Of a stretch of 64,000 nt of DNA, positions 1,170-62,246 are shown in pieces. Made by a program: the position numbers and the translations under genes. The notes below the pieces were generated by a model that saw nothing but the letters and a program-made list of their open reading frames with translations, was not told the origin of the DNA and did not search any database. Within the stretch, counting starts at the first letter, position 1; the number at the start of each line of letters is the position of its first letter. This DNA comes from Candidozyma auris (lineage: Eukaryota; Ascomycota; Pichiomycetes; Serinales; Metschnikowiaceae): the NCBI RefSeq assembly GCF_003013715.1, contig NC_072816.1, positions 620,001 through 684,000 on the forward strand, in the 5' to 3' direction.

Positions 1170-1181
1170 CGGTTGCGAAAA
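1170..1181 (+). promoter_or_regulatory. GGYTGCRAAA element (variant CGGTTGCGAAAA)
   Basis: Copy of the window-wide promoter element, about 140 bases upstream of the lipase start and on the opposite strand to that gene. Confidence 0.45.
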
Positions 1182-2383
1182 AAAAAGCGGGTCCTACTAA
1201 GTGCACTTGAAAAGTCCGAGCCAGACGCAAAACGGTGACCCTGAAGGGAAATTCAGAAAAAGATAAAAGTGGAGCGGAATGCTTAAGCCCTAGTGAAGTG
1301 GAGAATAGTGACTGAAAGTGAAGGATCTGCTTCCTATTCTGTTTTTGTCGAGATCCCTGCTTATCTATTATTTCCAGACCTAGTCGAGACGTTGGGGTTT
1401 GGGGGGATGGCACCGAGGCACTTGCACGTGACGCAAAGTGCCATTGTGAATGGACAAACACATGGAGCTTTTAGTTGGGGGTTATTTTTGTTTTAGTGCC
1501 CTGCGCTTTCACCTACGTGTGTCGATTTGATTTCTCTTTTGTGTACAAAAGGCTCTACTTTGTATTTGTGCCATTTGCGCTTTGGCCATGTGCGGGCATT
1601 TGCAATAGTTGCGAAACCCAATACAATCGTGGTTAGACCACTCGAGAGAAAGGTGAGGAATTGATGTGATAGTATTACTGTGGATTTCTGGTTGGAAGCT
1701 AACAGATTGAGTGTCGAAATGATTATTTGTCTTTCGTTGGTGATTTGGTCGATGTGCGGTTAAATTCCTGTTGGGGATATCGTGCCTCGAGGACTATGAT
1801 TTTAGGTATAGTAATGGGGATTTTTAGGCTGTCAACAATGGATGCTTCAAAAGTGTACGGATTCTTCAATTTTGTGATCTACGTGGACTTGCAGATTTTT
1901 GTCTCCACATTTAAAGTGCTTGAGAACTTGCGCTTTGGGTGCAAATTTCCCGAGGGCATGAATACTCTTCAGGTTACTTGGAGGATTACTCTGGACAAGT
2001 CTTGGAAGAAAGAGATGTGGTTGGGGTTAAATGATGCATTTGCTTGCGGAGTTAGGACTTAAGCTCAGCGGGACCGAGTAGACGAAATTTGGTTGTTTCT
2101 CTCTTCTCTTCGCTTTTTATAACGTAATTTTATGTTCTCAGCGATTCAAAACTGTGCAACTATATTCTGGGGCTATACGTGCTGAAGTTTTGGGATGCAA
2201 CTATGAGGGACAAGCGAAAAAGACAAAAGTATGAGAGGCTTCGCTCAAATGCATGAAAAGTCAAGAAAAAGTCAATAATTTTGCTACTACAAGAAGATAG
2301 ACTTCCACTTGCTTTATGAGTAAGTTGGCATTAAGTAGTCTGCGATCGAGACGGTCTCAACAGGAGAAATTGGGCACCCCTTA

Positions 2384-2408
2384 CACGTGATTCAGGCGCA
2401 CGTGATTC
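2384..2408 (+). promoter_or_regulatory. Tandem CACGTGATTC E-box pair
   Basis: Two copies of CACGTGATTC start 15 bases apart (2384 and 2399), about 230-250 bases upstream of the septin start. CACGTG is the core recognised by Cbf1-type bHLH factors in yeasts. Binding here is inferred only from the core and the duplication. Confidence 0.4.
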
Positions 2409-2631
2409 CACACCATAGCCGACAATATTTCTCCCAACAAAAGGATAAGTATCCCAAGCACCTCGTCCCGTTCCATATCTTCGTTTCCGTCTCTCAACTC
2501 AACTACCTCCTAGCATTAGCCCCATTAGTCAAGTGCCAAAAAGTGGTGGACTCCGGTGTTACCTGCAGGTCTCTATGGACGTGTCGCTTTTGCGAGTAAA
2601 CACAGCACCCTTCAACTACAATTCACCGCCA

Positions 2632-3813
2632 ATGTCGTTCCAGGATTACAACACGTCGTCGCTGGCGTTGAGAAAAAGAAGGACCATCAAGAAGTCCATC
2701 AACTTCTCTGCCATGATCATAGGTGAGTCCGGCTCCGGCCGCTCCACCTTGATCAATTCGTTGTGTGGTGGGAATTCCATCGTGCCCACGTCACTGACGG
2801 CAGGGCAGGACCCTTTTCTGAAGAAGCTCACCTTGAGACACGAGAACGTCGAATTGGAAGATAACGAGGGCCATAAGATCTCGTTGAACATCATTGATAC
2901 GCCCAATTTCGCCAACGCCATCAATTGCGACGACGACTTTAAAATTATCGTGGATTTTATCAGACACCAGTACGACGAGGTGCTCTTGGAAGAGAGTAGG
3001 GTCAAGCGTAACCCTCGGTTCAAAGATGGCAGGATCCACGTGTTGATTTACTTGATCAACGCCACGGGCCACGGTCTCTCAGAAATTGACGTGAAGTTCT
3101 TGCAGCACGTCAGTGGGCTCGTAAATGTGATACCTGTCATTGCCAAAGCAGACTCATTGACCCCTGCAGAATTGAAATTGAACAAGAGACTCATCTTGGA
3201 GGACCTCAACAACTACAAGATTGAATATTACAAGTTCAACGAGTACGAGTACGAGGAAGACTATATCGACGACGAGATCATCGAATATAATAAATATTTG
3301 AACTCCTTGATCCCCTTCGCCATCATTGGTGCCAACAAGTTCCAGGAGCTGGGTGATGAAGACGATCTCTTGAAGCTAAGAGTTTTGAACCCAGCATACG
3401 CGAAGCCCATCAACATTGAGTTGCCCGAATTCAATGACTTCACGATATTGAAGAATATTCTTTTGATCACACATCTCAACGAATTTAAGGAGAGGACACA
3501 CGACGTCATTTACGAAAATTACAGAACGGAAGCGTTGTCGGGTAAGAAGTTTTCCTACAGCAATTACGACGGAAATGAGGAGGATGGCTCAAATAAGGAC
3601 GATGAGTCAGCCAGCTATCTAATGAAAGAGGAACAGATCAAGTTGGAGGAAGAGAGATTGAAAAAATTCGAAGAAAGAGTGCATCAGGATTTGATCAACA
3701 AGAGAAAAGAGCTCTTGGAAAGAGAAAATGAGTTGAAGGAGATCGAAAAGAGGCTACTCGCAGAGGGGTTGAAGCTCAACGAAGAAGGTGAAGTGGTCAA
3801 GATAGACGAGTGA
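2632..3813 (+). CDS. CDC11: Septin, Cdc11 type, divergent
   Basis: 393-residue septin. I start it at ATG 2632 because MSFQDYNTSSLALRKRR matches the N-terminus of Candida Cdc11; the 33 upstream in-frame residues look non-coding. A basic stretch precedes the P-loop GESGSGRS. Then come RHQYDEVLLEESRVKRNPRFKDGR and a G4 motif AKAD, all typical of Cdc11. The C-terminal ~70 residues form a charged coiled coil (KEEQIKLEEERLKKFEERV), as in filament-forming septins. Cdc11 caps septin rods at the bud neck and helps cytokinesis. Two features are odd: the G3 motif reads DTPN instead of DTPG, and the RG-x-YPWG segment of other septins is replaced by a tryptophan-free stretch. A sporulation-type paralogue (Spr28-like) is a less likely alternative. 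Confidence 0.85.
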   Translation: MSFQDYNTSSLALRKRRTIKKSINFSAMIIGESGSGRSTLINSLCGGNSIVPTSLTAGQDPFLKKLTLRHENVELEDNEGHKISLNIIDTPNFANAINCDDDFKIIVDFIRHQYDEVLLEESRVKRNPRFKDGRIHVLIYLINATGHGLSEIDVKFLQHVSGLVNVIPVIAKADSLTPAELKLNKRLILEDLNNYKIEYYKFNEYEYEEDYIDDEIIEYNKYLNSLIPFAIIGANKFQELGDEDDLLKLRVLNPAYAKPINIELPEFNDFTILKNILLITHLNEFKERTHDVIYENYRTEALSGKKFSYSNYDGNEEDGSNKDDESASYLMKEEQIKLEEERLKKFEERVHQDLINKRKELLERENELKEIEKRLLAEGLKLNEEGEVVKIDE

Positions 3814-3891
3814 ACTAGGGATATAGTTAAACGAATGAAAAATGCAAAAAGGTAAGATCTTCTCTTTCTAATATACACATCATGGATTTCT

Positions 3892-4836
3892 CTAAGTAGC
3901 AGTCTGGTACTTGCTGACGATCTCATCGAACTTGGCCTCTTTTTCGGCCAAGTCAGCTAGTAACTGGTGCTCAGGGTTTGACTCTTTCAAGTGCTGCAAC
4001 AAGGACTCGACGTTGGCGCCGTTGTTAGTGAGATAATCGAAAGTGACCTGGTTGGCGAGAAAATCGTCATTCTCGTTGCCCTTGTAGTTAAGAGCATTAA
4101 TCTGGTTCAACAACTCCTTGGCCTCGGGCAAGTGCTTTAATTGCATCGTCATGACGAACAAAACGTTCAAAATGCGGAACTTGCCCTGAGGATCATCTTC
4201 AAAGTCTGAAGACAACATCTCGTCGTAGAAATAAAATGCGTTTGAAATATTGTCCGACTCTCCCTTGATGGACAAGATCCAGCTCTCCAAAACCTGGTAT
4301 ATGATATTATCTCTTGCTTGTGGAGGGAAGTTCTGGAAGCCAGTGTAGATTTTGTATGCCTCCGAAAAGTTCTCTCTAACCAAGTACAACTGAACCAAGA
4401 TCAAGTAAGGCTCCAACTCTTTGACGTTGTTTGTGTTGTAGTTTGTGTACTTGACTAGAAGCTGTATCGCAAGGGGGACATCTTTTTTGAACTTGACGTA
4501 GTAGAGGGCAGTAAGGATAGCCTGCAATTCAAACTCAGGATTCACCACATCATCAAAGTAGGTGGACTCGTCTGTACCGAAAGTCATCAAATCGTTCCAG
4601 GCCTGCAAGACATCAAACACCTGAGTCTGCTCTGGGAATATCAGCTTACCATTGTCGATCAATTGGGAAGCATCTTGGGATAACGCTACGCTCGATCTCA
4701 CTTGAAACTCAATCACCTTGAGCTGATTATCTCTGGAAAAACTGTCCAAAGAATATGACAAGACTTTGTGGTGTTGGCTTGTGAAGAATTGGTTTCTGAT
4801 TGTGTACAACTCGCCCGAGTCGCTAAAGTCGTCCAT
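3892..4836 (-). CDS. SEC28: COPI coatomer epsilon subunit (Sec28)
   Basis: 314 residues if started at the ATG at 4834-4836; an upstream in-frame ATG (4908) would add 24 unrelated residues. The protein opens with MDDFSDSGELYTIRNQFFTS, the family start just before the first TPR-like helical pair. It continues as an all-helical repeat protein (ALTALYYVKFKKDVPLAIQLL; NIIYQVLESWILSIKG; ISNAFYFYDEML) and ends HQLLADLAEKEAKFDEIVSKY, which matches epsilon-COP. It stabilises alpha-COP in the coat of retrograde Golgi-to-ER vesicles. It is convergent with the septin gene (78 bases apart). A CGGTTGCAAAAAA element lies about 92 bases upstream of the start. Confidence 0.88.
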   Translation of the reverse strand: MDDFSDSGELYTIRNQFFTSQHHKVLSYSLDSFSRDNQLKVIEFQVRSSVALSQDASQLIDNGKLIFPEQTQVFDVLQAWNDLMTFGTDESTYFDDVVNPEFELQAILTALYYVKFKKDVPLAIQLLVKYTNYNTNNVKELEPYLILVQLYLVRENFSEAYKIYTGFQNFPPQARDNIIYQVLESWILSIKGESDNISNAFYFYDEMLSSDFEDDPQGKFRILNVLFVMTMQLKHLPEAKELLNQINALNYKGNENDDFLANQVTFDYLTNNGANVESLLQHLKESNPEHQLLADLAEKEAKFDEIVSKYQTAT

Positions 4837-4927
4837 ATTGTTCGTGGTTGTCTGTTTCTGTTTTCTGTCGACGTGTATATGGCTCTGAGAAATTGATAGT
4901 GTGGGCATATACAGGTCGCACCAAATT

Positions 4928-4940
4928 CGGTTGCAAAAAA
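4928..4940 (+). promoter_or_regulatory. GGYTGCRAAA element (variant CGGTTGCAAAAAA)
   Basis: Lies in the short gap between the LCCL gene stop and the SEC28 start, opposite in strand to SEC28, about 92 bases upstream of its ATG. Confidence 0.4.
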
Positions 4941-4952
4941 CTAGAGTTGGGC

Positions 4953-7025
4953 TTAAGTCACTCCAGCGGCTGCCATGGTAAGATTGAATCCGGGATACGA
5001 GAGGATGTAAGCTTTTGTATAGTCTCCGTGTTTCTTGCTCAGTGGGTCGTATCTTGCGATTCTTAAGTAGAGGTCGATCTCCTCCTCATCTTGTGTAGCC
5101 ATCTTAACAAGATCATTGAGGAATTCATTGGTGCTGATAAGTTGTGTCATGTTGAGGCTTCCTTGATTCTCATCCAAATATCTCTCGACATCATTGATCA
5201 AGAGTGATACATGCGTGTATCTTGTAAGCTCCTGTCCTACGACGGCATTTTCTTCCTCCGTGGCCTCTGGGAAGCTGTCTTCCCAGTAGAGCATGCCTTT
5301 GTCAGGATTCACATCGAAGATCATTGGCGGCGTGATATTTCCCTCGGGCTCACCACGTAAAAGCGACACGTTTGTCTCAGCGATAGAGGCGTAGCCCCAG
5401 CGAGCAACACCGGAGAGGAAGAGACCAAGTAAAATCCCTTGGAACACATATGCGGTGCGGCCTCTTGTAGAGCAACCAGGGATGAAAATCAAGGCGAAAA
5501 TGTAGTGGTGGATACGAAGAGTGAGTCCAGGTATCCATGCTAAAAGGAACAATGCAGCAATCATTAGAATGTAGATCTTGATGAGTCTGTTGAATCGTCC
5601 TGAAAGCCATACAGCATATGCCTGAGTAATTACACAAACAAGAATTATCACTGAAAAGATCGATACTGTGAGAAGGGCGCCAGGTTGATTCTGAAGATCT
5701 TTCCATGTAAGCCTATCGACAGGCAATCTATCGAAGGTTATGTTGTTGAGTATACCTAGCCAAAAAAATGGGTACCAAAATATGAGTCTTGACATTGGTG
5801 AGCTTGAAGGCTCCATGGGAGAAATGGGAGCTTCTCTTTCTTCTTGTGGCTTACTGAAAGTTCGCTTTATACTCACCTTCCACAAAAAGTACATTACGAA
5901 GCAAGTTGGCAAAAATCGGCCCAAGCTGAGCGAGATCAATTCGTAGAAGGTCTCCAGACGAGCAGGGTCTACAAGTGTAGGCGGATCGGTGGCCAAGCTA
6001 ATGGTCCAGAATCCCACAGACATGAGGCCCCATATAAAAACAGCAGATGAGCCCAATATGACCAATGGTATGCCAAGGACAACGTTCATGATCAACACAA
6101 CGAGCCTGGGGTCTTTGCAATGCGACACCGAGGCGTCGATGTCCTTAAACACGTATGAGGATGGGAAAAACGATTTAAATGCAATAGAGTCGGAAACGCC
6201 GTACTTGCCTTTAGTCGCTTCAAACGAGGTTTGTGGCCCGCTTTTGAATGAAGCTCTAGCGCAACCACCAAAGAAAGGAGAAATGATCCCTGCGTGGACG
6301 CCAGCCCCACAAGGAAATGAGTCCGCTCTATAAGGGTGTGTGATAGCACCATCTTTTCCACTATCTTTGCTTCCTCCACCCACAAAAAAACCCCTGTACT
6401 TGATCATCTGGTCCCCTACTGCCCTCAGGGAGTAGAGCCAGCTGCCCCTATCACAAAGAGCAGGACATCTGATGATCACATCCTCATCTTCAGGAAGTTT
6501 TGGGCAAAGATGGGCATCTAGTCCACATGCAGCGTTTTTCCCCTTCCAGAAGTCCACTGCACCTTCACAAGTAAGAGAGATCGCCGAGGCGTCTGGATCA
6601 CCACTTACTTGGGGCACCTCAGTGAAGTACGGAAGTAGCACTCGTGCCCAAATAGCTACCCACACAAGCACGTATAGCAATAAAGCGATGATTCGAACAT
6701 TGGGAGAAGTTTTTTGCCGGAATCTATCTGGAAGAAGCTCTAGCGGTCTGAGCTTAGAGATGGGTCGAGGTGGGTCGTCCCTAGGATACGCAGGACCCAG
6801 AACCAATGCAGAAAAGAAGCTCTTGACCGAATCTTTCCATGTCTGAGGATGCCACGGGGCCCAGCGGGTTCCCTGGGGTTCGGGCTCTGGGGAAGATGTA
6901 GATGGGTTTAAGGATGTAGTGGGATCAGCAGAGGAAGTGCCCCCCGACCGCTCCAAGTCGGTATCAGGTTCGAGATCAGCGTCTTTGTTTGCTGCCAATA
7001 GCGACAGCCTTTGCTCATCAGACAT
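4953..7025 (-). CDS. LCCL-domain multipass membrane protein
   Basis: 690 residues. A hydrophilic, Ser/Pro-rich N-terminus (1-105) is followed by a first membrane segment (IIALLLYVLVWVAIWARVLL). A lumenal Cys-rich domain of about 150 residues comes next, with the pattern VIIRCPALCDRGSWLY ... HPYRADSFPCGAGVHAGI ... GGCARASF. This is the LCCL fold as found in a fungal family of unknown function. At least seven further hydrophobic helices follow, including AVFIWGLMSVGFWTISLA, FWYPFFWLGILNNI and IYILMIAALFLLAWIPGL. The C-terminal ~130 residues are soluble. The family call rests on the cysteine pattern and topology; no role in the cell is established. The gene lies 116 bases upstream of SEC28 in tandem. 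Start ATG is at 7023-7025. Confidence 0.8.
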   Translation of the reverse strand: MSDEQRLSLLAANKDADLEPDTDLERSGGTSSADPTTSLNPSTSSPEPEPQGTRWAPWHPQTWKDSVKSFFSALVLGPAYPRDDPPRPISKLRPLELLPDRFRQKTSPNVRIIALLLYVLVWVAIWARVLLPYFTEVPQVSGDPDASAISLTCEGAVDFWKGKNAACGLDAHLCPKLPEDEDVIIRCPALCDRGSWLYSLRAVGDQMIKYRGFFVGGGSKDSGKDGAITHPYRADSFPCGAGVHAGIISPFFGGCARASFKSGPQTSFEATKGKYGVSDSIAFKSFFPSSYVFKDIDASVSHCKDPRLVVLIMNVVLGIPLVILGSSAVFIWGLMSVGFWTISLATDPPTLVDPARLETFYELISLSLGRFLPTCFVMYFLWKVSIKRTFSKPQEEREAPISPMEPSSSPMSRLIFWYPFFWLGILNNITFDRLPVDRLTWKDLQNQPGALLTVSIFSVIILVCVITQAYAVWLSGRFNRLIKIYILMIAALFLLAWIPGLTLRIHHYIFALIFIPGCSTRGRTAYVFQGILLGLFLSGVARWGYASIAETNVSLLRGEPEGNITPPMIFDVNPDKGMLYWEDSFPEATEEENAVVGQELTRYTHVSLLINDVERYLDENQGSLNMTQLISTNEFLNDLVKMATQDEEEIDLYLRIARYDPLSKKHGDYTKAYILSYPGFNLTMAAAGVT

Positions 7026-9985: not shown

Positions 9986-11159
9986 GGTGGAGGGCTATGG
10001 AAATGGCTGCGAAAAAAAAATGTCAACCTTTAGAGAAATCTGCTTACGCGGCCTATATATGGCAGAGGGCAGCGAAGGGCACAGTGCCGTGGCTCTGTAA
10101 CTGATGGCACGCACGATACAGAGCTTATCAGGGCGCTGGGGCGCCGCAGAGGGTGGTGCTTGCAGCGAGGGCCCTCAGCGGGAAAACTGGCAGGCCCTCA
10201 CTCCAAGGGCAAGAAGTCACCAATAAATCAGAAATAAAAAAAAAGATTACCCGAGAACTGCCAAAATCGTGCAAAAAATGCAAACAAATTGCAAAAACTG
10301 AAGGCAGTATCCAAGGTTTCTGGTGATTTTCACATCATCGACGGTTGAAGCGGATTGTTTTTTTCCTCTTTGGTGTTGGTTCGTGTTGCACGGCTGTGGG
10401 GGAAGACCGTGGAGGAGAGCGACAAAAAAAAAAGAACAATCCCAGGGCGCCAGAGGGGACCGGCCCGATGGGCCCGCGCAGTGATGCTGAAACAAGCTCC
10501 AAGGTCAGCGCCAGGGCCAAGACGCACTTTGACAGGCCAAGCACAAGGTTGACAGATTGAGAGCAGAAAGGGGCCCCAAACGGCGAATTGTTCAAGCTGC
10601 TCGGTGGTTATTTTGCTTTTTTGGTTTTCTTTTGTGACTTTATTTGTGTGTCATTGGCAGGTGCCAGGTGATAGCCCTGGGTGCTTATTAGGTGCCGGTG
10701 CCGCCTGGAGCCGTACGGTGAGAAGGCTTCGGCCGGGAGCGAAACCGGCGAAACAAAAGGGCGCTTGCTCGCTGCTCGCTTGCGGGAAGAATGTCATCGC
10801 GCCGAGATCGCGCAATGTGTCATCGAGCGACGGGCTGCTGCGAATAACGAGATGCTGGGATTGCCTTGAAGTTGACGTTGACGAGACGGTGAAGATGATT
10901 TCGTGAAAAGTGCCCTCTGTGTGAAGTTTTTGTGATCTTATCGCCCTTTAATCATGTGGCTTCTGGGGGGCTTTCATGGGGGCTTTGCCGTGTGGCTACC
11001 TTCGCCTGTTTGACATCGGTTGTTCTCTGCAGACACCCGCGCTCCACACTGGCCTGTGTGGCAGCTGCCTGCCTTCCCCCGCCTACAACTCTCTTATCGT
11101 GGTATTAACATTAAACTTGACATTCCTTCCGGTAAACTACTTCCTGCTTTCCCTTGCGC
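9986..11159. other. Intergenic region upstream of OPT
   Basis: 1.17 kb between the OPT start and the RNR1 stop. Contains an exact TGGCTGCGAAAA (10004-10015) and a TATATA at 10054-10059, about 70 bases before the OPT ATG. Further out are purine tracts (near 10236 and 10430) and an AATTGCAAAAAC partial match near 10288. Overlapping short ORFs in several frames resemble nothing known. No gene called. Confidence 0.5.
10004..10015 (+). promoter_or_regulatory. TGGCTGCGAAAA element, exact copy
   Basis: Only 19 bases upstream of the OPT initiation codon, opposite in strand to the gene. It is the copy closest to a start codon, so it probably lies in the 5' UTR or at the transcription start. Confidence 0.5.
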
Positions 11160-13900: not shown

Positions 13901-14121
13901 AAGATATGAGCACGAGTACCGCGTAAGAGGCAGCAATCTCGGTTACCTCTGTCATTGGGTGGAGGGAAGAAAAAGGAAAGTGAACGGTTTTCAGGAGAAA
14001 ATAGAGGATTTTCAAGATGGAGGTTTAGAAGGTGAAATTAGAAAGGTTGATTTGAGTGGATTTGTCATGGGCTTTGCTTTTCCTTTGTACTGAACAATGT
14101 TGCTTACAAATGTCGAAGAAT

Positions 14122-14133
14122 GGCTGCGAAAAG
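14122..14133 (+). promoter_or_regulatory. TGGCTGCGAAAA element, exact copy
   Basis: About 374 bases upstream of RNR1, on the opposite strand to that gene. Confidence 0.5.
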
Positions 14134-15782
14134 ACCCACATAGACTGATATAGACACCCAGAAGACCTGAGAAATAGAAACCCTCCACTCTTAACAAGAG
14201 AAGTAGCATTCGGTTAATGAATTGACCTGAGCAGTGTGGGAATTGTAGCCTGGTCTTGTATTTTCACTAACTTATAGTGTTGTTTTACCTCTCTCATTGG
14301 GTCTTTTTCCACCCTGTGTTCTACGCTGAACTGTAAAACCGTAATGAATTATTCTTCAATTACTGGTCCACGTTCTTTTCAAAGTTGACACGACCACGTT
14401 CTCCATAACACGTCCACATCGTCAAGTTGTTACTTTTTAGCTCTCTTTACGATTTCCGGGTGGGTCTCCGGATCGGAGCGCCTTCGACACAGGTTGTTTG
14501 TATACGGCTGCAAACAGGCTTCCTTATGCCTGATAACACAATCAAAACATCCTCATCGGGTAACAATAACGAGGAAGCCCTTGATTTGGGGAGATTCTGA
14601 TCCAGTTTACCTTGTTTCACATCTGGCTAACATTGATATTGGTTTTTGGCTTTTTCTTTCTCATGCCTCTCAGGATAGTACATCTATAACCAATTTCATC
14701 GAACGCGCTCGCGTGGGCCGCTAAGAACGTGTATCGTGGACGTGTATCTGTGTGTCGTGAGGTGTTGACGAATTTCCTGTTAGGGCATATTAATTGTGTG
14801 GATCCAGTTCCTGTTTGTGACCGATCGAAGTTGATTGCTGTGGAATGCTGGTCAATGTGTGGACTGGACTTGAGTACGTGGTTGTGGAATTGAACAAATT
14901 AGGCATCCAGGTAGCCGATTCAGGTACGTTTTGTAGATAAGGGGTGATTTTGGACTGATTTAGTGGTTCTTTAAGTGATGCTAGTTGAGCATTTAGGGGA
15001 GGCGAGACCGATACAGAGCAAACTCTGGGCTGACACCTTCGTCCTGTGAGAAGAAAAGATAATATCAAATTTTGCCTGATTTCTTTTAAACTTTTAGAAG
15101 GTAAGTTCACTCTTCTGGATCAATACAAGCCACGCATGTATATACACTGGTCTTGAGGAGTTGACAGAATTGAGTGCTCATATTGCGACGACAATAAGCA
15201 AAGATGGTGGATTTATTGGAAAGCATCGCCAGGATTGTTCTGAGTCCATACCCCTAAACATCTGTCTTCAGGTGAGCTCAACGGTTTCAGAGTAGGTTCA
15301 AAGCATCTACAATGAATCTTGGAGCGGATGTCTTCAGGAATGGCTTTCGAATTGCACATCTACTCATTCTCTCTCCAAAGACAACCGACGCATTTATAAT
15401 GCAACGGTCTGAGCAGCGATGGACTTACTGAGTACGTAAGAAGAACTATTGGACCGCCATCTGCACACTAACAAGTATCGAAGAGCCCTTCTATTTCCTT
15501 CCTCAAGTCCCTTCTAATCAACCATCATTGCGAGAAGCCCCTCTGAGTTTATCCAGCCTTAGAGGCCTTAGGTTCGATCTAAACTTTCGAAAACGGTCTC
15601 CAATATCATCACTAAAGCTTTTCGTCTCCCAAAAAATCACCATTCTCAAGCCTCCATCAACAGACTCCAAAATAGCCGGGCAAATTAGGCCCTTAGATCG
15701 ACGACTCAGCCAGCGCCTTCCTCCTCCTCTTCCTCCTCCTCGGCTTCCCCATACTAATTTCCGGTTCCAGTGTAGAGAGAAA

Positions 15783-15794
15783 TGGCTGCGAAAA
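15783..15794 (+). promoter_or_regulatory. TGGCTGCGAAAA element, exact copy
   Basis: About 110 bases upstream of the alcohol dehydrogenase start and on the same strand. A TATATAA follows at 15834-15840, about 63 bases before the ATG. Confidence 0.5.
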
Positions 15795-17636: not shown

Positions 17637-18971
17637 TCACATTGCCGCTGCCTCCCGCCAATAATTGTCAGCTCCAAAGCGTGCTAGCAAGTCAATGGCT
17701 TCATTGTCTGTAGACGTGTACATTCGCAGCCACTTTTTGAAGGAAAGCTGCTTGATCTGGCCCTCCCACACTATAGTACATGAGTTTTTGGATGGTTGCA
17801 GGATTGGCTGCGAATCTGGGGAACCCTCTGTCTGGCTCTTCACGTTCCAGTCGATTCTGGCGGTCATCAACCTTTTGTAAAACTTGATGGCCTTTTCTCC
17901 TCCCTCAACAATGACCAAGTTAAATCTAGGATTGAAGAGCATCACACCATGAAGCTCCATCTGCTTGGCGTTGATATCCACCTTGAACTGGTGCTGCTTA
18001 TTATCTAGAGAGTCCACCCGATACACTGTGGTGAAGATTCCTCGGTCCAAGTCCCGCTCGAGCCGTTGCTTCGCTTTCTCGTGCCGCTGTTCGGGCGTGA
18101 GACGCCGCTCCTCGTTCGTTTTCATGTGCTGCTTGTACCGTTCCTCCACCTGCTGACGCACCTTCATTTCCACGCCTGTAGGGTCCTTGATGGCCTCGTT
18201 AGTGAGTACGTTCATCAAGTTAGAAAGCTTAACTTTCGGTGGCGGTGGCGGGTCAAGCCCAAGTCTGATACGATCCTGTTTCTCCTGGTGTCGGGCAAGA
18301 CGCTCATTTCTTCTTTTCCGTTTGAGTTCCTTCTTCGTGAGGAACAACCCTGGTTCCACCTCATGGCGTTCGTTCAGCACGGTCATTGGATGCTGGATAT
18401 AAATTGAAACGGGCGCCTCCTCGTTGTCTAGCACAAATTCGCCCTTGAAATCGTCATACAGCCGTGTCTGAAGGTACGGTCTGTCCCACCATTCTATGAG
18501 GGGAGGGAACTGGCGCTGGTATAGATGTTCTCCAATACTTTCGTCGGGAAGTAGGTTTTTTTCTCTAAGTCTTCGTCTATGCTCCTCTTCCTCTTTCTCC
18601 TTTTTGAGCTTTTCTCTGAGCTGTTCCCCCTGGGCAATGTATTTTCCCTGAGGATTCAATTGGAGGGGCCTCGGTCTGTGTAAGGGTGCTCTCACGTCAC
18701 TCTGGTTGAGGTATGGATTCAACGCCGCAGGATCAAAAACACTTCGAGCCTTGCGTTTTCCTGGGCCCTTTTGTGCCTGTGGCACCGATGCTAGGTCTCG
18801 TAGAAGAGGGTGAACTTCAACATTGAGCCCTCCCGAAGGTTGTTTTGACTGTGATGCAGATTGGGTTTTTGGTGGCGCTTTTTTCGGTGGAGCAGGCTCA
18901 TCGTCAAAGTCCAAGCGACGCTTCCCTTTCGGTAGCTTGTCTCGCCAATTGCCAGCTTTGTTCCCTGACAT
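17637..18971 (-). CDS. PRP3: U4/U6 snRNP protein Prp3
   Basis: 444 residues. A Lys/Pro-rich N-terminus carries basic patches (KLPKGKRRLDF). The Prp3 domain follows: a charged helix (REKLKKEKEEEEHRRRLREKN), the IEWWDRPYL segment, PVSIYIQHP, and LFLTKKELKRKRRNERLARH. The C-terminal ferredoxin-like DUF1115 region holds GVMLFNPRFNLVIVEGGEKAIKFYKRLMTARIDW. Prp3 bridges U4/U6 RNA and binds U6 in the U4/U6.U5 tri-snRNP before spliceosome activation. The family match is clear over the whole length, and the C-terminus ends a little after the DUF1115 fold. Start ATG is at 18969-18971. A TGGCTGCAAATT element lies 72 bases upstream. Confidence 0.93.
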   Translation of the reverse strand: MSGNKAGNWRDKLPKGKRRLDFDDEPAPPKKAPPKTQSASQSKQPSGGLNVEVHPLLRDLASVPQAQKGPGKRKARSVFDPAALNPYLNQSDVRAPLHRPRPLQLNPQGKYIAQGEQLREKLKKEKEEEEHRRRLREKNLLPDESIGEHLYQRQFPPLIEWWDRPYLQTRLYDDFKGEFVLDNEEAPVSIYIQHPMTVLNERHEVEPGLFLTKKELKRKRRNERLARHQEKQDRIRLGLDPPPPPKVKLSNLMNVLTNEAIKDPTGVEMKVRQQVEERYKQHMKTNEERRLTPEQRHEKAKQRLERDLDRGIFTTVYRVDSLDNKQHQFKVDINAKQMELHGVMLFNPRFNLVIVEGGEKAIKFYKRLMTARIDWNVKSQTEGSPDSQPILQPSKNSCTIVWEGQIKQLSFKKWLRMYTSTDNEAIDLLARFGADNYWREAAAM

Positions 18972-19390
18972 ATAGATTAAGAAGTGGTTGATAGTAGTTA
19001 CTATGGGATGCGATGTCTGGTGGATGCAGTATATGCGTAGAATGGCTGCAAATTGGCAAACAGAAGAGAAGAGAACATAATGAAGGGAAAATCGTATACT
19101 GTATTAGACAATATCTAGAAATCTTCAAATTTTCAAATCTTTACAACTTTTGCAACAATCTAGGACTTTGGGAAAACTGGCTTAAAAGAAGAGGCATCGT
19201 TGTCTGTCCACAAACAAATCTGTCTAGCGAGTCTGGGCCCTGTCCACTTTAACAACAAAAATTTCGATATTATTTGCTTTAACCACTTTGTCGACATAGT
19301 GTTCTAGTGGCTTGCTCCTGCACTCATTTTTTTATCAGTTTTGCGCTTATGTGTGACGGGGCCTCCTGCCATTCCTTTCTTCTTTAAAAG
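18972..19390. other. Intergenic region upstream of PRP3
   Basis: 419 AT-rich bases between PRP3 and the orphan membrane protein gene. Contains TGGCTGCAAATT at 19043-19054. Nothing else recognised. Confidence 0.5.
19043..19054 (+). promoter_or_regulatory. GGYTGCRAAA element (variant TGGCTGCAAATT)
   Basis: 72 bases upstream of the PRP3 ATG, opposite in strand to PRP3. Confidence 0.42.
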
Positions 19391-20365: not shown

Positions 20366-20895
20366 CTTCGAAGTTGTTCTTCAAGTTTTGAAAAGAGATA
20401 TATACTTCTATTTATAGTTGAGCTTGACCTATAAGTCGACACAAAAGGGGGCAAAGGAGCTTGGAGTTGCTCCACAAGTTGCCTTTTGAGAGTAAATTTC
20501 CTTCAAGTTACCGAAGAAGCAGCAATTACCTTCTCAATAAAGGAAAAAAAAAAAATAAAAATTCCAAATTCCTGAAAACGGTAATCATTGTCAATATGCC
20601 TTGATCTTTTGAGAATTTGGTGTTATCTGAATTGCACAATTTGAACAAAGTGATCAGTGTCGTTATATGGCTGCGAAAACAATGGTCTCTGAAGTAGTAC
20701 CCTTTCATCAACTTTGAGAACACAGAAGAGCCATTTACTCTCACCTTAATCGTAACCTTAAATTATTTCTTTTTATTGCTTCCCTCTCCATTACTCTTCT
20801 CTTTCTTACATCATCTTCCTACGACATTCCATACTAACGCGCCCTGCTTACTCCCAATGTGTGCACACCAACATCAACAACCACCTTATGAACCC
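20366..20895. other. Divergent promoter region, orphan membrane protein / MUS81
   Basis: 530 bases with an exact TGGCTGCGAAAA at 20668-20679, 303 bases from the orphan start and 217 from MUS81. An A-rich tract lies at 20541-20560. ACGCGC (20837) is an imperfect MCB-like hexamer near MUS81. Confidence 0.5.
20668..20679 (+). promoter_or_regulatory. TGGCTGCGAAAA element, exact copy
   Basis: In the shared promoter region of the orphan membrane protein gene and MUS81. Confidence 0.5.
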
Positions 20896-32710: not shown

Positions 32711-32722
32711 TGGCTGCGAAAA
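32711..32722 (+). promoter_or_regulatory. TGGCTGCGAAAA element, exact copy
   Basis: About 335 bases upstream of YHM2, opposite in strand to the gene. Confidence 0.5.
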
Positions 32723-38731: not shown

Positions 38732-38760
38732 GCGCCCCATGTTGAGGATAAGGAGCGCGA

Positions 38761-45316: not shown

Positions 45317-45634
45317 ATTTTGAGTAGTTTCGATAAAGAAGAGGAGTAGTTGTATGCTACGGATGATGTATGACTCAACTCCGACCCGAACAGTGTATTG
45401 TTTTTCTGCGAGGCTAACAATGAACCTGCCGTAATTCGAAGTCATACTGGAACTACACCTGGTCGAAATATTGAAACGTTCATATAACATAGATAATACA
45501 TTTCGGGCTTTTCTGAGGGGTAGGCAGCTAGCAGCGCAGCGCCATTTGCAGCCATTCTCATACTTCGCAAGCATGATTTCCATACATGGAGTACACTGCG
45601 TCGACAGAAACCTCACAACGATTCAGGTTCAACT
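45317..45634. other. Intergenic region upstream of the MFS gene
   Basis: 318 bases. Holds TGGCTGCAAATG on the minus strand (45543-45554). Nothing else recognised. Confidence 0.45.
45543..45554 (-). promoter_or_regulatory. GGYTGCRAAA element (variant TGGCTGCAAATG), minus strand
   Basis: 227 bases upstream of the MFS gene and on its own strand. Confidence 0.42.
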
Positions 45635-46648: not shown

Positions 46649-46660
46649 TGGTTGCAATCG
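46649..46660 (+). promoter_or_regulatory. GGYTGCRAAA element (variant TGGTTGCAATCG)
   Basis: 55 bases upstream of the aldo-keto reductase start, opposite strand; a weaker match lacking the A run. Confidence 0.3.
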
Positions 46661-53979: not shown

Positions 53980-54149
53980 GAGATAGCAGGCTGCGAGCAA
54001 GCTGCTTTAGAGACAAAGAATTATTCGACAGCAGTGCTGTCGGAGGCTTGTATCGATACATTCATTATAATACAAACAAAAGTCTAGTCTAGTAGAACAC
54101 AACGAGGGTTTACTAGCATTGGGGGAGAATCCACGTAGCAAAAGGCATC

Positions 54150-55356: not shown

Positions 55357-56733
55357 TTATTTCTTAGCAGCCTTCTGAGCAGCCTTGGTGACCTTACCGG
55401 CCTTGTCGGACTTCTCAACAGACTTGATGACACCGACAGCAACGGTCTGTCTCATGTCTCTAACAGCGAATCTACCCAATGGTGGGTAGTCAGTGAAAGC
55501 CTCAACACACATTGGCTTGGTTGGCACCATCTTGACAATAGCAGCGTCACCGGACTTGATGAACTTTGGCTCGTCCTCCAACTTCTTACCGGTTCTTCTG
55601 TCGATCTTCTCAATCAAGGTGTCGAACTTACAAGCAATGTGGGCAGTGTGACAGTCCAACACTGGAGAGTAACCAGAGGAGATCTGACCTGGGTGGTTCA
55701 ACACGATAACCTGGGCGGTGAAAGACTCGGAGCCCTTTGGTGGGTCGTTCTTGGAGTCACCACAGACGTTACCTCTTCTAATCTCCTTAACAGAGACGTT
55801 CTTGACGTTGAAACCAACGTTGTCACCTGGGACACCCTCGGCCAACTGCTCGTGGTGCATCTCAACGGACTTGACTTCGGTGGTGACACCAGCTGGGGCG
55901 AAGGTGACAACCATACCGGCCTTGATGACACCGGTCTCGACTCTACCGACTGGCACAGTACCAATACCACCGATCTTGTAGACATCCTGCAATGGCAATC
56001 TCAATGGCTTGTCGGTTGGTCTGGTTGGTGGCTCAATTGCGTCAATGGCCTCCAACAAGGTCTTACCGGTGGACTTACCGGCCTTGGTCTCCTTCTCCCA
56101 ACCCTTGTACCAGTCACAGTTGGTGGAGGCCTCAATCATGTTGTCACCGTTCCAACCAGAGATTGGCACGAAAGGAACAGTCTTAGGGTTGTAACCAACC
56201 TTCTTGACGAAGTTGGAAGTCTCCTTGACAATTTCCTCGAATCTGTTCTTGTCCCACTTGACAGAGTCCATCTTGTTGATGGCAACAATCAACTGCTTAA
56301 CACCCAAGGTGTAAGCCAAAAGAGCGTGCTCTCTGGTCTGACCGTCCTTGGAGATACCAGCCTCGAACTCACCAACACCACCGGCAATGATCAAGATGGC
56401 ACAGTCAGCCTGGGAGGTACCAGTGATCATGTTCTTGATGAAATCTCTGTGACCTGGAGCATCAATAACGGTGACGTGGTACTTTGGAGTCTCGAACTTC
56501 CACAAAGCGATATCGATGGTGATACCTCTCTCACGCTCAGCCTTCAACTTGTCCAAGACCCAAGCGTACTTGAAAGAACCCTTACCCAACTCGGCGGCTT
56601 CCTTCTCGAACTTCTCAATGGTTCTCTTGTCGATACCACCACACTTGTAAATCAAGTGACCGGTGGTGGTGGACTTACCGGAGTCGACGTGACCAATGAC
56701 AACCAAGTTGACGTGCTGCTTCTCTTTACCCAT
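55357..56733 (-). CDS. TEF1: Translation elongation factor 1-alpha
   Basis: 458 residues, identical in length to S. cerevisiae eEF1A. GTPase motifs are GHVDSGKST (14-22), DAPGH (91-95) and NKMD (153-156). Domains II and III follow, with [26 protein letters not shown] and the C-terminal Lys-rich tail [14 protein letters not shown]. It delivers aminoacyl-tRNA to the ribosome. Codon use is extremely biased, which also produces a spurious 366-codon antisense ORF. Start ATG is at 56731-56733. A TATAAAA box lies at 56792-56798 on the minus strand, 59 bases upstream. Yeasts often carry two copies; only one is here. Confidence 0.98.
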
Positions 56734-56844
56734 GTTTAATTGATGTGAAGTAGTTGGAAAAAAAGATTGGGAGGTGTGCGAGGGATGAAGGTTTTATATT
56801 GCGGCAAGGAAAAAAATTAGAAAAAGAACTGTACATAGGCCTCA

Positions 56845-57039
56845 TCGCGCGACATTACCAGCCACTCGTGGTTGCCCATTAGGAGCAATACTGAGGGGAA
56901 GAAAAGAGATGAGGTAGAATTCCGACTATTGTGGAGGTCCCTCATTATCGCTATGTTGAGTATCTTTTCAATTTCGTTCTGAAAGTGGAAAATTTAGGGG
57001 AACTGGTTCGGCCCTTGGAATGTCGTGGACGCGCGACAT
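56845..57039. promoter_or_regulatory. Pair of CGCGCGACAT sites in the TEF1 promoter
   Basis: Sites at 56845-56855 and 57030-57039, about 112 and 297 bases upstream of the TEF1 ATG. The distal one is part of an inverted ATGTCG...CGACAT arrangement (57020-57039). The same CGCGCGACA string is half of the palindrome upstream of RNR1. Confidence 0.45.
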
Positions 57040-57321
57040 TTTGCCATATAGAGGTCTTATTACTGAGCCGCAGAGGCGTGCATTTGCCTGGAGCTACTTT
57101 CTGATTTGCCTGATTAGGTGCAAAAAGCAAAAAAAAATTAATGTTGAATAAGGTTCCGAAGTTGTTCATCGACGACAATAAGGCGCTGAAATTTGGGGTC
57201 TCTTGCAAAGATATCAGCGTCTGTCGTCCATAAAACAAACCGTCACGTGCGGCCTCCGAGGGCTCAGCCCTGGAACTCCGAGCAACCGATGGGTGTCGCA
57301 CAGCATACTAAGCAGGCAAAG

Positions 57322-57333
57322 TGGCTGCAAAAG
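57322..57333 (+). promoter_or_regulatory. GGYTGCRAAA element (variant TGGCTGCAAAAG)
   Basis: About 590 bases upstream of TEF1, opposite in strand to the gene. Confidence 0.4.
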
Positions 57334-58028
57334 TTCTTCAAAGTTCCTTGGAAGCAAATTGAAAAGACATTGTGTTTCCAGGGATGAATTGGTGAAATTG
57401 TAAGCTTGCATCGTCATTGGAAGAATCCATAAGAATCTTGAAGTGTTTGTTGTTCTTTTTGATCGGTACTTGTAGTAAAGCGTCAGTTCGATATCGTCTC
57501 CAGAAGCATCTCCGTAAGTGCACCGAAGTAGATCGAATTCTTATGAAGCTTCACGACTTCTCCCAGAGTTCAAAAAAAACCAAAAAAAAATAAAGAAAAA
57601 AAACCATTGAGCTTCTAAAGCTGTTCAACATGGAACTCTCTAGAATTATGACTCCTTGTACTCTGAAACAACAGCTTTGAAGGCATTATAAGTTTTGCAA
57701 AGGGAATTCAAATTGCGGTATGATAGATGATCAATTTCCAAATTAGGGACTCAAAAAAGTCATTGAGGGCAACAATTTTCTGTAGTTGGCACAAAGCTGT
57801 ATTTTTATGTGTTGGTGTTTGTTTTGAGAAGTGCTTGTATTCTCACATTTCTGTCAGTGTCGTCTAAATCTACCCACACTTCGTGAATTAGGGCTTGTCA
57901 ACGAGAACAAAAAAATACCTCTACATTGAAATATGCTATCTTTTTAACAATAGCCTTCTTTTTCTCTTCATACTTGCAATATGCTTTGAAAATTCTACAT
58001 CTTTTTCCTCGTCAGTCGTGATATTAGT

Positions 58029-60065
58029 CTACTTGTTGGCTGCTCGCCTTGTCCGCTTGGCTGGACGGTCGATATCCTCTCCGAGCTTCTTCATGAGCTC
58101 TTCACTGTTCTGTACTGAGTCTTGGTTCACATACCCAACTTGTGTCATGATATCGTCGCTCTCGGGCGGCCGGTCCTCCGAGCGGACATCCTCACCGTCA
58201 TCCTCACCACCATCTCGAGCCCGCTTGAGCTTTTCTGTGAGCGATTCGCCGCCACCGGCTAAGCGACCAAACTTCTGCTTCTCTCTGACTTTTCGTGGTG
58301 ATGGAAGCTGCACAGACTCGCTAGCCTCCTCACTTTCTTCCACAGAGCGTCGTTGCGTTTGAAAGTCGTTGTTGATACTCCTAACGTAGTCAAGAAGCGT
58401 GGTGGGTTTTGCCAAGCTCCGAGGCGCATAGATACACCAATGATGATCAAATATGTCTGGCATTTGCAAATTGGCCTTGCCAGCCAGCGTTTGGATCATC
58501 TCCCAGAGGTAAGCGATTGATACGATGGGAATGTTCCATTTTTTGGCAGCATTCATCTTGTTCTGGGAGGAAAGCACAGACACTGACGACAGACCGTCGC
58601 CCGTGGAGTAAATCGGGCAGTTGAGCACGTCTTTGTGCTTGTATTTGAACAACGTCGGACTCTTCCCTAAGAGTCTGTCTTTGAATAAATTAATATTAAC
58701 GATAAGCAAGTCTCGCTTCGATGCAAGGGTCTCGCAAAACTCAAGATTTAGATACTCAATGAGTTTTTCAATGTGTAGTAGCTCCACTCCCGTGAAGCCC
58801 GTGATGCAAACTTTAAATTTCTTCGGCAGCGGCACCAACCCTTGCAAGGGTTTGCACCAGCTGTCATGACGAATCTGTTTATAGTAGATTGACCGTTCAA
58901 TGAACCAGTCGGTGACAACATGGACATCCTTACTGTTGATTCGACGCTTCATCCCGCTTGGGAGCATCAGAAGAACCAAATTGGCCTGAGGCCCGCTCTT
59001 CACCAAAAGAAGCACATGTGTGATTGTTTCGTCGTCAGCAGAGCCAGCCACTTCTCCGTTATGCGACTCCACTACCGTCCTCAACACTTTCTGCTGAGGA
59101 ATCGAGAAACCTACCGGTAAAAACTTGAAGCCCACAAAAAGCGAGCTTTTCTTGGCCGCCGGCGACCTGGGCGCCAGCTCCGTAGTTGTGATTGTTGTTT
59201 CCTTCTCCTCAGCAGGCTCGTCCCAGATACTCTCCTTGATCGTTTTCGCCGCCTTGGACCGTGCATTGTTCATGATTGAGCTCCACACTTCCGACGACTT
59301 CTTCAAGGGCGCCCTTTCCGCGTCCATGTTCACCCCTGGCGCAGACTGAGGCTTTGACAGCCCAATACGAGCAACGTATAGCTTCTTCCACACAAAAGAC
59401 GCGTTGTTGTAGAGATTGTTCCCATCAGCGGTGAGCACATAGTCGTCGAGGTCCAAAGCAGCACCTCTCAAGCACGAGTCGTACACCCAAAGCGGGTGTA
59501 CCACGGAAATCCCCCACTGCTTGGCCATCGTAAAGCGCTTCCCCAGAGTCTCTGTGCTCACCACCACATCGCTGCTGGGAGTTAGCGTCGTGCTGACCGT
59601 AGCACCCTTCTTTTCCATGCAAACAGACACCTCGTCCGCCAGAAACGCGTCAGTGAGCAGATCTCGAGGCATTGCCCCGGCCACAGGCGTTCTGAACCTC
59701 TCAGCAAACAACTTCAGCACCACTTCCACAGCAGGCCTGTCTATTCGTGCAACACACACATTGAACAGCAGAAACACAGGCAACTGGTACTCGTTTGGAT
59801 CGAGCCCCGTGTCGTCGCCCGCAGTCCATCTCTCGTGGATCTTCTTGATGGCGGTTGGTGCCAAAAACACAATGTCGTGCCGGTACTTGATTGAGTACTT
59901 GTACTTCTCTGTTGATCTGGAGCCCACAATTAAATACTGGACCAGACTCATGAGGTCGCTCTGGTGGGTGCCGCCCAAGGCCAAGATCTTCTCTGCGATC
60001 TCGTGGCGTTCCAGCCCCTGGAGCCCCGTGCAGCAGAACGTGCGGCCCATCAACGGCTTCGACAT
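58029..60065 (-). CDS. DPB11: BRCT-repeat replication initiation/checkpoint protein Dpb11
   Basis: 678 residues with four BRCT repeats in two pairs, roughly 5-90, 115-225, 310-405 and 425-530. Each ends in a hydrophobic-Trp helix (e.g. VVHPLWVYDSCLRG, VVTDWFIERSIYYK, VSIAYLWEMIQ). The first starts LMGRTFCCTGLQGLERHEI, close to Rad4/TopBP1 family openings. The tail is acidic and ends in a basic nuclear-type signal (RPAKRTRRAANK). Dpb11 binds phosphorylated Sld2/Sld3 to fire origins and activates the Mec1 checkpoint. Paired BRCTs with a long linker, rather than a C-terminal pair alone, favour Dpb11 over Rtt107 or Rad9. Start ATG is at 60063-60065, with an exact TGGCTGCGAAAT element 222 bases upstream. 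Confidence 0.88.
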   Translation of the reverse strand: MSKPLMGRTFCCTGLQGLERHEIAEKILALGGTHQSDLMSLVQYLIVGSRSTEKYKYSIKYRHDIVFLAPTAIKKIHERWTAGDDTGLDPNEYQLPVFLLFNVCVARIDRPAVEVVLKLFAERFRTPVAGAMPRDLLTDAFLADEVSVCMEKKGATVSTTLTPSSDVVVSTETLGKRFTMAKQWGISVVHPLWVYDSCLRGAALDLDDYVLTADGNNLYNNASFVWKKLYVARIGLSKPQSAPGVNMDAERAPLKKSSEVWSSIMNNARSKAAKTIKESIWDEPAEEKETTITTTELAPRSPAAKKSSLFVGFKFLPVGFSIPQQKVLRTVVESHNGEVAGSADDETITHVLLLVKSGPQANLVLLMLPSGMKRRINSKDVHVVTDWFIERSIYYKQIRHDSWCKPLQGLVPLPKKFKVCITGFTGVELLHIEKLIEYLNLEFCETLASKRDLLIVNINLFKDRLLGKSPTLFKYKHKDVLNCPIYSTGDGLSSVSVLSSQNKMNAAKKWNIPIVSIAYLWEMIQTLAGKANLQMPDIFDHHWCIYAPRSLAKPTTLLDYVRSINNDFQTQRRSVEESEEASESVQLPSPRKVREKQKFGRLAGGGESLTEKLKRARDGGEDDGEDVRSEDRPPESDDIMTQVGYVNQDSVQNSEELMKKLGEDIDRPAKRTRRAANK

Positions 60066-60286
60066 AGTTTCATGGGTAGTTGTATGTGAGTGGTGAGTGG
60101 GATGCGCGATATCAGTAGAGGATGGGTGATGATGGAGGTTGGAGGCAGTGGAAGAAGTGGGGGATAGTTTAAAGAGATGAGTAGAAATTAGAAGTTATAC
60201 AAGGGTCGGTTTGGAGTGTAGAAGCTGAAATTGTTTGTGTGGTTCGCTCAATGTGGATGTACGATGAAGTGTATGGGAGTTTTCTA

Positions 60287-60298
60287 TGGCTGCGAAAT
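60287..60298 (+). promoter_or_regulatory. TGGCTGCGAAA element, exact copy
   Basis: 222 bases upstream of DPB11, opposite in strand to the gene. Confidence 0.5.
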
Positions 60299-61201
60299 TT
60301 TTCAGAGCTGTTGAGAAGGAGGTAAGATGGCGAAAGAGGGGGGTTGAGGAGATGAGGGTGGGTTTATGGGAGTAGACTGACATAGATCAAAGTTCTCACT
60401 TGACAGGGAAAGTCGTCTATTCATGTATCTCTAAGCGGGAGTTTTCAGCGAAGGGTCCATTATCCTGCTAGTCCTCACCCTCAAGGTCTCACAAGTGAGG
60501 TAGTTCTGAAATGATGTATCATGTAGTTACAGTTCATAACTACTTCGTTGTAGCTGCTCTTGAACCATTGTGGTTTGTGGGCCCCAAGAAGTAGAATTAT
60601 TGTAAAGGACAACGTGGTATCCGCTCGTACCTCTTTGTAAAGTGTATTCTACGGGGTATCGCCTAGTGCCAATCTGATCCCGCCTTGCAATTTATGCCTG
60701 GAAACGCCAACAGAGAAATCTGCTGTACCAGAGTCAATCTCGATTCCCCAACGCCTCCCACAGTGTGGTTCGGGGAATAAAATGTAAGCAAACAGATCAG
60801 TATAATTGATAGCTAATGGATGAGAAGTTGTCACCGAATAGCACATTGGATGGAGGTAAAAAGGCAGGCAATCTCGACTGTTCATCAGCGAGAGCACATA
60901 CAGCGCCTAATGAAAACGCCTGCTTCTATTCTACCGTACAGTTAGTGTATGTCAATGGCACCGGGGGTGCTACAATTGTCAATAGAGAAGTGCATGTCAG
61001 CATCGATTACCCCCTCACTAACAACCACGGACGGCCCAGCAGCACCACGTGAACAGCAGCTTGTGTGTGATCTGGCACGCTGTCAACATAGCAAAAACGC
61101 TTTCTTTTTATTTCGTGGAGCAGGGATCTACAATTGTCAGAAACGGGGACATAGGAGGGTAAAGCAGAGTTCAAGGTGGACAAAGGAGGGATCGTCAATA
61201 T

Positions 61202-61325
61202 GGACCATCGAGCATTAGTGGGGGACCATCGAGCGTTAGTGGGGATCGACGTCGATTGAGCAATAGTTGGGATCGTCGTTACAGGCTGTGGTTATAGTTT
61301 TTCGTTACAGTCTGTCGTTATAGTT
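61202..61325 (+). repeat. Two adjacent imperfect tandem duplications
   Basis: Unit A, about 21 bases: GGACCATCGAGCATTAGTGG at 61202 and its near copy (one A-to-G change) at 61223. Unit B, 24 bases, at 61276-61299 and 61302-61325, differing at two positions. The palindrome ATCGACGTCGAT (61245-61256) lies between them. Confidence 0.8.
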
Positions 61326-61819
61326 CATCTCGCTAACGCTCACCGATCGATCTCACGTCGATGTCCTGGTGAGTGAGTCAAGCCACCAATGGCACCTCCC
61401 GCAATTACCGCATGAGGATGCGTAAGTGGAGCCCCCCGGCCAAACAGAACAGCAGGGTCCTGGGCGGCGGCAAAAAGCAGATCCAGAGGACATTCACAAC
61501 GAACAACCAACCATTTGCAAAGAATAGCTTTGAAAAAGAAATGTAGCGTTTAAAAGAAATCTGTAGAGGTGGAAGCTGGAAGTGGATGTGTAGAAGTGGT
61601 GGGTGCACTTGGCTACTGGCAGAAAATCCTCAGCTGGAGCAGAGCGAAGACGCCATCCCAAACGAGCAACAAACAAACAAGCAAGCTGGGAAGAAGACTT
61701 CAACACACAAAGTTCACAGGCGGCCCAGTTCCCGCCGCCCACGTTAAGCCAAGTTCCAAGCCCACTGAGTATATACGAGAAGCGCTAGGGCATAGAATTC
61801 CAGGGAGCAATTGCATGTT

Positions 61820-61851
61820 TGGGAATCTTTGGGGAATCTTTGGGGAATCTC
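61820..61851 (+). repeat. 11-bp tandem repeat (about three units)
   Basis: TGGGAATCTTT, GGGGAATCTTT, GGGGAATCTC in immediate succession. Confidence 0.8.
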
Positions 61852-62234
61852 TGCAGCGGCCCGCAGCAGGGAGAGTGAGAGTTTCAGATTCACGCGGTGA
61901 CGGTGACTAAAAAAAAAGGAAAAGAATGGCTCTGACTTCGCAGGCGGCCCAAGCTGTTTCCAGCAGGCGTGCTACTTAGTCAGGAAACCGCCGCGGCAGG
62001 CGCCTAGAAATTGGAGGTGTGTGGCAGGAAGGGGAACAGAGAATGTAGGAACAAGTCAAACAAAGACAATAACAGGGAAGGTGACAGGCGACAATGGTAG
62101 GGGCCTAAGATGGAGAAATTTAAATTGGATGAACTTGTAGATGGAGCAATCAGGGATATGGGGCCTGGAGATGGCATCGGGGAGGTAGCAAATAGGCAAC
62201 GGGGCGCCGGGGCTGGAGGCGCTCGCCCGCCTGG

Positions 62235-62246
62235 TGGCTGCGAAAA
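62235..62246 (+). promoter_or_regulatory. TGGCTGCGAAAA element, exact copy
   Basis: About 1.15 kb upstream of the wall-protein ATG, same strand; far for a promoter element unless the upstream region is regulatory or transcribed. Confidence 0.45.

Follow-up and report, generated by a model that had tools for sequence, protein, structure and literature searches.

A recurrent promoter-enriched word in Candidozyma auris as the putative site of a general regulatory factor

Among the general regulatory factors of yeasts, Abf1 is characterised by long, promoter-borne sites, and the Reb1/Nsi1 site likewise serves as a general-regulatory-factor site in Saccharomyces cerevisiae. For Candida albicans, an Nsi1 site, TTACCCGG, has been seen by chromatin endogenous cleavage sequencing (ChEC-seq; PMC7565893). 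A second study reports that an Abf1 orthologue is absent from Debaryomyces hansenii, C. albicans and Yarrowia lipolytica, that the nucleosome pattern of C. albicans and D. hansenii is explained to only a small extent by Reb1 and Abf1 sites, and that Cbf1 is proposed to have held the role of general factor ancestrally, prior to the whole-genome duplication (PMC2897762). Given the absence of Abf1 and the little that Reb1 and Abf1 sites explain, a further factor is wanted in the CTG clade, and it is an unsettled question which proteins hold promoters open in these yeasts. Here we describe a word that bears on this question, TGGCTGCGAAA, which recurs in a 64,000-nucleotide stretch of the Candidozyma auris genome (hereafter the window) and throughout the rest of that genome.

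The initial annotation of the window listed seven exact copies of TGGCTGCGAAA and eleven near matches, and judged the exact word to be far above chance. All seven exact copies are present, all are on the + strand and all fall outside predicted genes, although the copy listed at 14122 starts at 14121; only 0.04 copies would be expected, and none of 100 shuffles reached seven. Ten of the eleven near matches fit the form given for them, (C/T)GG(C/T)TGC(G/A)AA(A), the exception being the one at 46649, which reads TGGTTGCAAT. The near match listed at 45543 exists at 45545 (- strand), where it falls just within the predicted N-terminal end of an MFS transporter frame. The shorter word GGYTGCRAA is found 20 times in the window (3.08 expected; 0 of 100 shuffles reaching 20), the position at 46649 not being among them, and 13 of the 16 TGGYTGCRAA copies lie outside predicted genes. 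Copies missing from the initial list comprise an intergenic one at 14506 and two within the PRP3 frame, at 17723 (-) and 17806 (+). Two exact copies overlap mechanical reading frames, neither of which was accepted as a gene: the copy at 62235 overlaps a 162-aa frame on the - strand with a GTG start, and the copy at 15783 lies at the ATG of a 249-aa frame that itself overlaps the alcohol-dehydrogenase-like gene.

A search of the whole genome (12.25 Mb in 7 contigs) identified 926 exact copies of TGGCTGCGAAA (475 forward, 451 reverse), compared with 5 (4 + 1) for a control in which the word was reversed but not complemented. The degenerate word TGGYTGCRAA occurs 2,682 times (1367 forward, 1315 reverse) versus 69 times for its reversed control (36 + 33) and 194 times for the pyrimidine variant TGGYTGCYAA (102 + 92), which indicates that the count depends on single positions. 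The motif is real and far above chance. The pyrimidine variant, for which the corresponding reversed control gave 36 + 26, may itself be slightly enriched. Within the window, 17 of the 20 GGYTGCRAA copies are on the + strand; we judge this excess to be local, because the strands are balanced genome-wide and a stretch with the same skew as the most extreme 16 of 62 sites came up in 653 of 5000 shuffles. Among the matches listed for contig 1, 27 of 48 pairs of neighbouring sites are on one strand. A chromosome-long strand polarity on this contig, starting from ~344 kb, was considered and rejected, as minus sites occur in that stretch.

The shape of the site was refined on the intergenic DNA of a 364-kb sample, which combines the 64-kb window with 300 kb from contigs 5 and 1 and holds 155 predicted genes (ATG frames of at least 60 codons picked by codon statistics, plus one window-edge frame). 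An iterated matrix converged to 129 sites, compared with 19 at that threshold in synthetic DNA of matched third-order composition, with both matrix and threshold fitted on this same sample. The refined consensus is AATGG(C 0.58, T 0.29, G 0.12)TGC(A 0.62, G 0.35)AA(A), with 16.5 bits over 17 positions, and its specificity is sharp. The exact word has 21 intergenic copies in the sample, while most of its one-base variants have 0 or 1; the variants above this carry, at position 8, A (13 copies) or T (4), at position 11 T (4), at position 4 T (3) and at position 3 A (2). The G-variant TGGGTGCAAA is represented by 9 intergenic copies (0.57 expected) and may represent the same site in variant form or else an independent iron-regulon site. 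An A precedes about half of the motif sites, giving ATGG.

A very high copy number could also be the legacy of a dispersed repeat or a transposon end, which the initial annotation had itself raised as a possibility, or the product of base composition. However, information falls back to background ~3 bases outside the core and the flanking sequences are unrelated, with a mean pairwise identity of 0.25 on both sides and a maximum of 0.53 across the sample. Along with the low genome-wide counts of the reversed and pyrimidine controls, this argues so strongly against a repeat remnant, a transposon end or a compositional effect that we regard any such origin as extremely improbable.

The motif is concentrated in noncoding DNA. 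In the held-out 300 kb beyond the window, noncoding DNA holds 59 of 66 TGGYTGCRAA sites and 16 of 17 copies of the exact word while making up a share of 0.34-0.36 of the sequence, and stricter gene thresholds leave this result standing. Across the whole sample, 10 of 82 TGGYTGCRAA sites are coding (13 of 82 if sites beyond the outermost genes are counted as "coding or edge"), and the refined matrix is 9.8-fold denser in intergenic than in coding DNA. The equal density that the initial annotation had named as evidence against a promoter element was therefore not found in the sample. When 8-mers and 10-mers present at least 6 times in the intergenic DNA of the sample were ranked by over-representation, words of the motif came top after poly(A) and above CACGTG words. 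A separate word, TATGTACA/TGTACATA, is also over-represented in the intergenic DNA of the sample (18 copies versus 4.2 expected, with 3 in coding DNA).

Enrichment near promoters was likewise evident. For intergenic TGG(C/T/G)TGC(A/G)AA (n = 79), the 44.8 kb located 50-400 bp ahead of an ATG contain 41 sites and the remaining 83.1 kb contain 38, so that the former is twice as dense as the rest of intergenic DNA (p = 0.003). Among regions longer than 20 bp, the refined matrix finds a site in 25 of the 31 divergent ones, in 46 of 92 that are tandem and in 3 of 26 that are convergent, although the convergent ones are also short in length. The densities of TGGYTGCRAA in divergent, tandem and convergent intergenic DNA are 0.70, 0.47 and 0.33 per kb (32, 34 and 3 sites). 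Regions holding GGYTGCRAA number 60 of 152, which is fairly close to the ~53 expected from region length. This placement bears on the idea that the motif is an architectural or replication site, such as an origin-recognition or boundary element, that is intergenic for that reason. An intergenic location and the lack of a fixed orientation would both suit such a site, and some yeast origin motifs likewise sit in promoters. Nevertheless, the two-fold preference for positions 50-400 bp from an ATG and the small number of convergent regions with a match are contrary to this idea, and the origins usual in a 12-Mb yeast genome are several times fewer than 2,682. We therefore consider an architectural or replication function quite unlikely.

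Relative to the adjacent gene (the nearer one in divergent regions), TGGYTGCRAA has the same orientation in 27 cases and the opposite orientation in 39 (n = 66, p = 0.18), and tandem regions alone gave 13 and 21, respectively (p = 0.23). A strong orientation is thus absent, while a slight lean is possible. Read on the gene's own strand, this lean corresponds to TTYGCARCCA, seen for 48 of 78 GGYTGCRAA sites (p = 0.05), and is slight and unproven. A further possibility is a signal acting at the RNA level: the site could be a 3' splice site (TTYGCAG), the context of a start codon or a signal in an untranslated region (UTR). Several copies lie less than 100 bp from an ATG, the reverse strand contains CAG, about half of the sites give ATGG, and the slight lean is to the opposite strand (39 of 66); in addition, ATGGCTGCGAAA reads M-A-A-K, which we take to be like the translation initiator of short 5' UTR (TISU) element. 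An RNA signal would require a single orientation, though, and the orientations are mixed, which makes this explanation very unlikely. Two specific forms of it were tried and rejected. For a start codon or TISU element, the frames that begin at intergenic ATGGYTGCRAA are short, with 3 of 36 exceeding 60 codons versus a background of 7%. For a 3' splice site, branch-point-like words were found upstream of 14 of 93 sites and are not enriched over the random rate of ~0.18, which is itself a slight underestimate, since draws that fell in very short regions were passed over yet kept in the denominator. With the RNA, start-codon and splice readings disfavoured, the remaining reading is a DNA site that is recognised by a protein.

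We propose that AATGG(C>T>G)TGC(A>G)AA(A) is a putative site of a widely acting factor, probably a general regulatory factor. This is favoured because the number, length, breadth and promoter position of the sites match those of general regulatory factor sites: many copies stand before functionally unrelated genes, and they are enriched in intergenic over coding DNA. The genes with sites span splicing, replication, transport, lipid, translation and nuclear-pore functions. A Pfam scan of 30 frames in the window found a family in 24, and all 13 gene names given by the initial annotation agree with these at family level (lipase, COPI epsilon, OPT, RNR1, PRP3, MUS81, NDC1, Na/H exchanger, mitochondrial carrier, fatty-acid desaturase, MINDY, EF-1 alpha and a BRCT protein, corresponding to DPB11). 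The breadth over unrelated genes on which that annotation built its general-factor claim is hence borne out, whereas a general factor in the strict sense, abundant and nucleosome-clearing, is what we infer from it. In this model, one abundant sequence-specific factor would occupy the site, without fixed orientation and mostly 50-400 bp before start codons, and would act at a large fraction of the otherwise unrelated promoters of this Candidozyma yeast. Once bound, it may keep nucleosomes off or mark the edge of a nucleosome-free region, so that other activators and the polymerase would then be able to work, and the site would accordingly matter for transcription. Searches of the genome for candidate DNA-binding families returned 17 Myb domain matches, 2 RFX matches and 3 AFT matches at 2 places, none of which was tied to the site.

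The main rival to this proposal is that the site belongs to an ordinary transcription factor whose regulon is very large and which controls, for example, growth, stress or nutrient responses. The position and breadth of the sites would suit any abundant activator, and ~two thirds of upstream regions have no site: TGG(C/T/G)TGC(A/G)AA is present within 600 bp upstream of 54 of 154 genes (~one third) and absent for the other 100. Nor is there any indication that the sites cooperate with poly(A) tracts, as 8 of 79 sites in the sample lie within 60 bp of an A7 tract compared with a random mean of 8.4. On the other hand, the functions of the genes are mixed, their codon bias is not significantly skewed (p = 0.19) and 2,682 copies would be extreme for one pathway, so that an ordinary factor, although worth serious consideration, appears doubtful.

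Some of the same data count against a general regulatory factor as well, namely the missing association with A7 tracts and the lack of a significant link to codon bias. To these can be added that distances to the ATG are broad with no tight peak, that GGYTGCRAA may have a weak lean to one orientation (30 of 78 sites in the same orientation as the gene, p = 0.05), and that the contrast per kb between divergent, tandem and convergent regions is only about two-fold, with three sites in the convergent class; we ascribe this weak contrast to the shortness of convergent regions. Furthermore, the gene calls that underlie all of these comparisons are based on frame statistics and not on RNA.

The sites of the described yeast factors differ from the motif. 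The Abf1 site has a different sequence, and a search with the Abf1 family (PF04684) gave no match in this genome, but no match in any control genome either. The motif is also unlike the Reb1/Nsi1 site, whose core TTACCC(GG) it does not contain. Genome-wide, TTACCCGG occurs 116 times (59 + 57) compared with 360 times (190 + 170) for its reversed control, and is therefore three times rarer. The short core TTACCCG is 3.4-fold denser in intergenic than in coding DNA of the sample, with 13 of 20 copies intergenic. Reb1 may have a reduced promoter role in this yeast, with Reb1-type sites in minor use. The Cbf1 site CACGTG is palindromic and of another sequence, whereas the motif is asymmetric, although both are over-represented in the sample. 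The CACGTG words GCACGTGA, TCACGTGA and ATCACGTG are enriched intergenically, with 2, 0 and 0 coding copies, respectively, and Cbf1-like sites look important in this yeast.

The proteasome-associated control element (PACE), the site of Rpn4, has the sequence GGTGGCAAA. It shares GG..GC(A)AA and a similar length with the motif but differs at position 4 of the 9-mer (G for T), and the refined site, which has T after GG(C/T/G), does not correspond to it; GGTGGCAAA is itself rare in the sample (3 copies, 1 intergenic). In agreement with the initial annotation, the motif is neither PACE nor CACGTG. Two further resemblances are leads only. AATGGCTGC resembles the YY1/TISU-type consensus AANATGGCNGC, from which the motif differs in that position 4 of its 10-mer takes T or G and a downstream AA is required. 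The minor variant TGGGTGCAAA contains TGCACCC, the iron site of Aft1/2, but no such match exists for the major variants with C or T, and thousands of sites are unfit for an iron regulon. Among the matches listed in a literature search by motif spelling and topic, which covered few subscription journals, the motif word was undescribed, with no title on yeast promoters among those listed by spelling, and it is not described in the available parts of PMC7565893, PMC2897762, PMC12607694 and PMC7559329.

It is conceivable, and we advance it only tentatively, that in Candidozyma, and perhaps in the wider Metschnikowiaceae, the main role of Reb1 and Abf1 has passed to a different, undescribed factor with a 12-bp site, which would now dominate among the genome's specific promoter elements. 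The intergenic enrichment that the short core TTACCCG retains makes such a transfer somewhat less likely. A single word of such sharpness, present in 926 exact copies, provides a directly testable handle on promoter function in a medically important genus, and promoter studies and motif searches in this genus will keep encountering the element. If the factor were found, it could be traced how such factors have turned over from one yeast lineage to another.

The coordinates of the sites in the window are collected in the table.

Table. Positions, strands and surroundings of motif copies in the window
Word	Position	Strand	Context
CGGTTGCGAAA, near match	1170..1180	+	divergent region, lipase/esterase (-) / septin (+)
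TGGGTGCAAA, G-variant of refined matrix	1936..1945	+	divergent region, lipase/esterase (-) / septin (+)
CGGTTGCAAAA	4928..4938	+	between two - strand genes; 20 bp before COPI epsilon ATG
TGGCTGCGAAA, exact	10004..10014	+	19 bp upstream of OPT transporter (-) ATG
TGGCTGCGAAA, exact	14121..14131	+	divergent region; 373 bp upstream of RNR1 (-)
CGGCTGCAAAC	14505..14515	+	second site of divergent region upstream of RNR1
TGGCTGCGAAA, exact	15783..15793	+	110 bp before alcohol-dehydrogenase-like gene (+)
TGGCTGCAAAT	19043..19053	+	72 bp upstream of PRP3 (-)
TGGCTGCGAAA, exact	20668..20678	+	divergent region; 179 bp before first ATG of MUS81 (+)
TGGTTGCAAAA	23738..23748	-	87 bp before NDC1 (+)
CGGTTGCAAAA	27893..27903	+	87 bp upstream of Na/H exchanger (-)
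TGGCTGCGAAA, exact	32711..32721	+	divergent region; 335 bp upstream of mitochondrial carrier (-)
TGGTTGCAAAA	33823..33833	+	divergent region mitochondrial carrier/desaturase; 490 bp before fatty-acid desaturase (+)
TGGCTGCGAA	34266..34275	+	47 bp before first ATG of fatty-acid desaturase (+)
TGGTTGCAAAA	40329..40339	+	126 bp before MINDY deubiquitinase (+)
TGGCTGCAAAA	57322..57332	+	589 bp upstream of TEF1 (-)
TGGCTGCGAAA, exact	60287..60297	+	222 bp upstream of DPB11 (-)
TGGCTGCGAAA, exact	62235..62245	+	GC-rich stretch without an accepted gene

The two copies within the PRP3 coding frame both read GGCTGCGAA (17723-17731 on the - strand and 17806-17814 on the + strand) and lie 83 bp apart on opposite strands; they possibly mark an internal promoter or are a coincidence. 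Scans of the window for tRNA genes (ARAGORN) and for Rfam families at gathering thresholds gave no match. The PAF1-family protein encoded in the window is 86% identical to a protein of Candidozyma haemuli var. vulneris, and its DPB11 is 74% identical to the C. duobushaemuli counterpart. The 3.3 kb between 60066 and 63391 hold no accepted gene call and are GC-rich around 62.2 kb, where one exact copy of the motif is located, and an unpredicted gene may lie inside this region.

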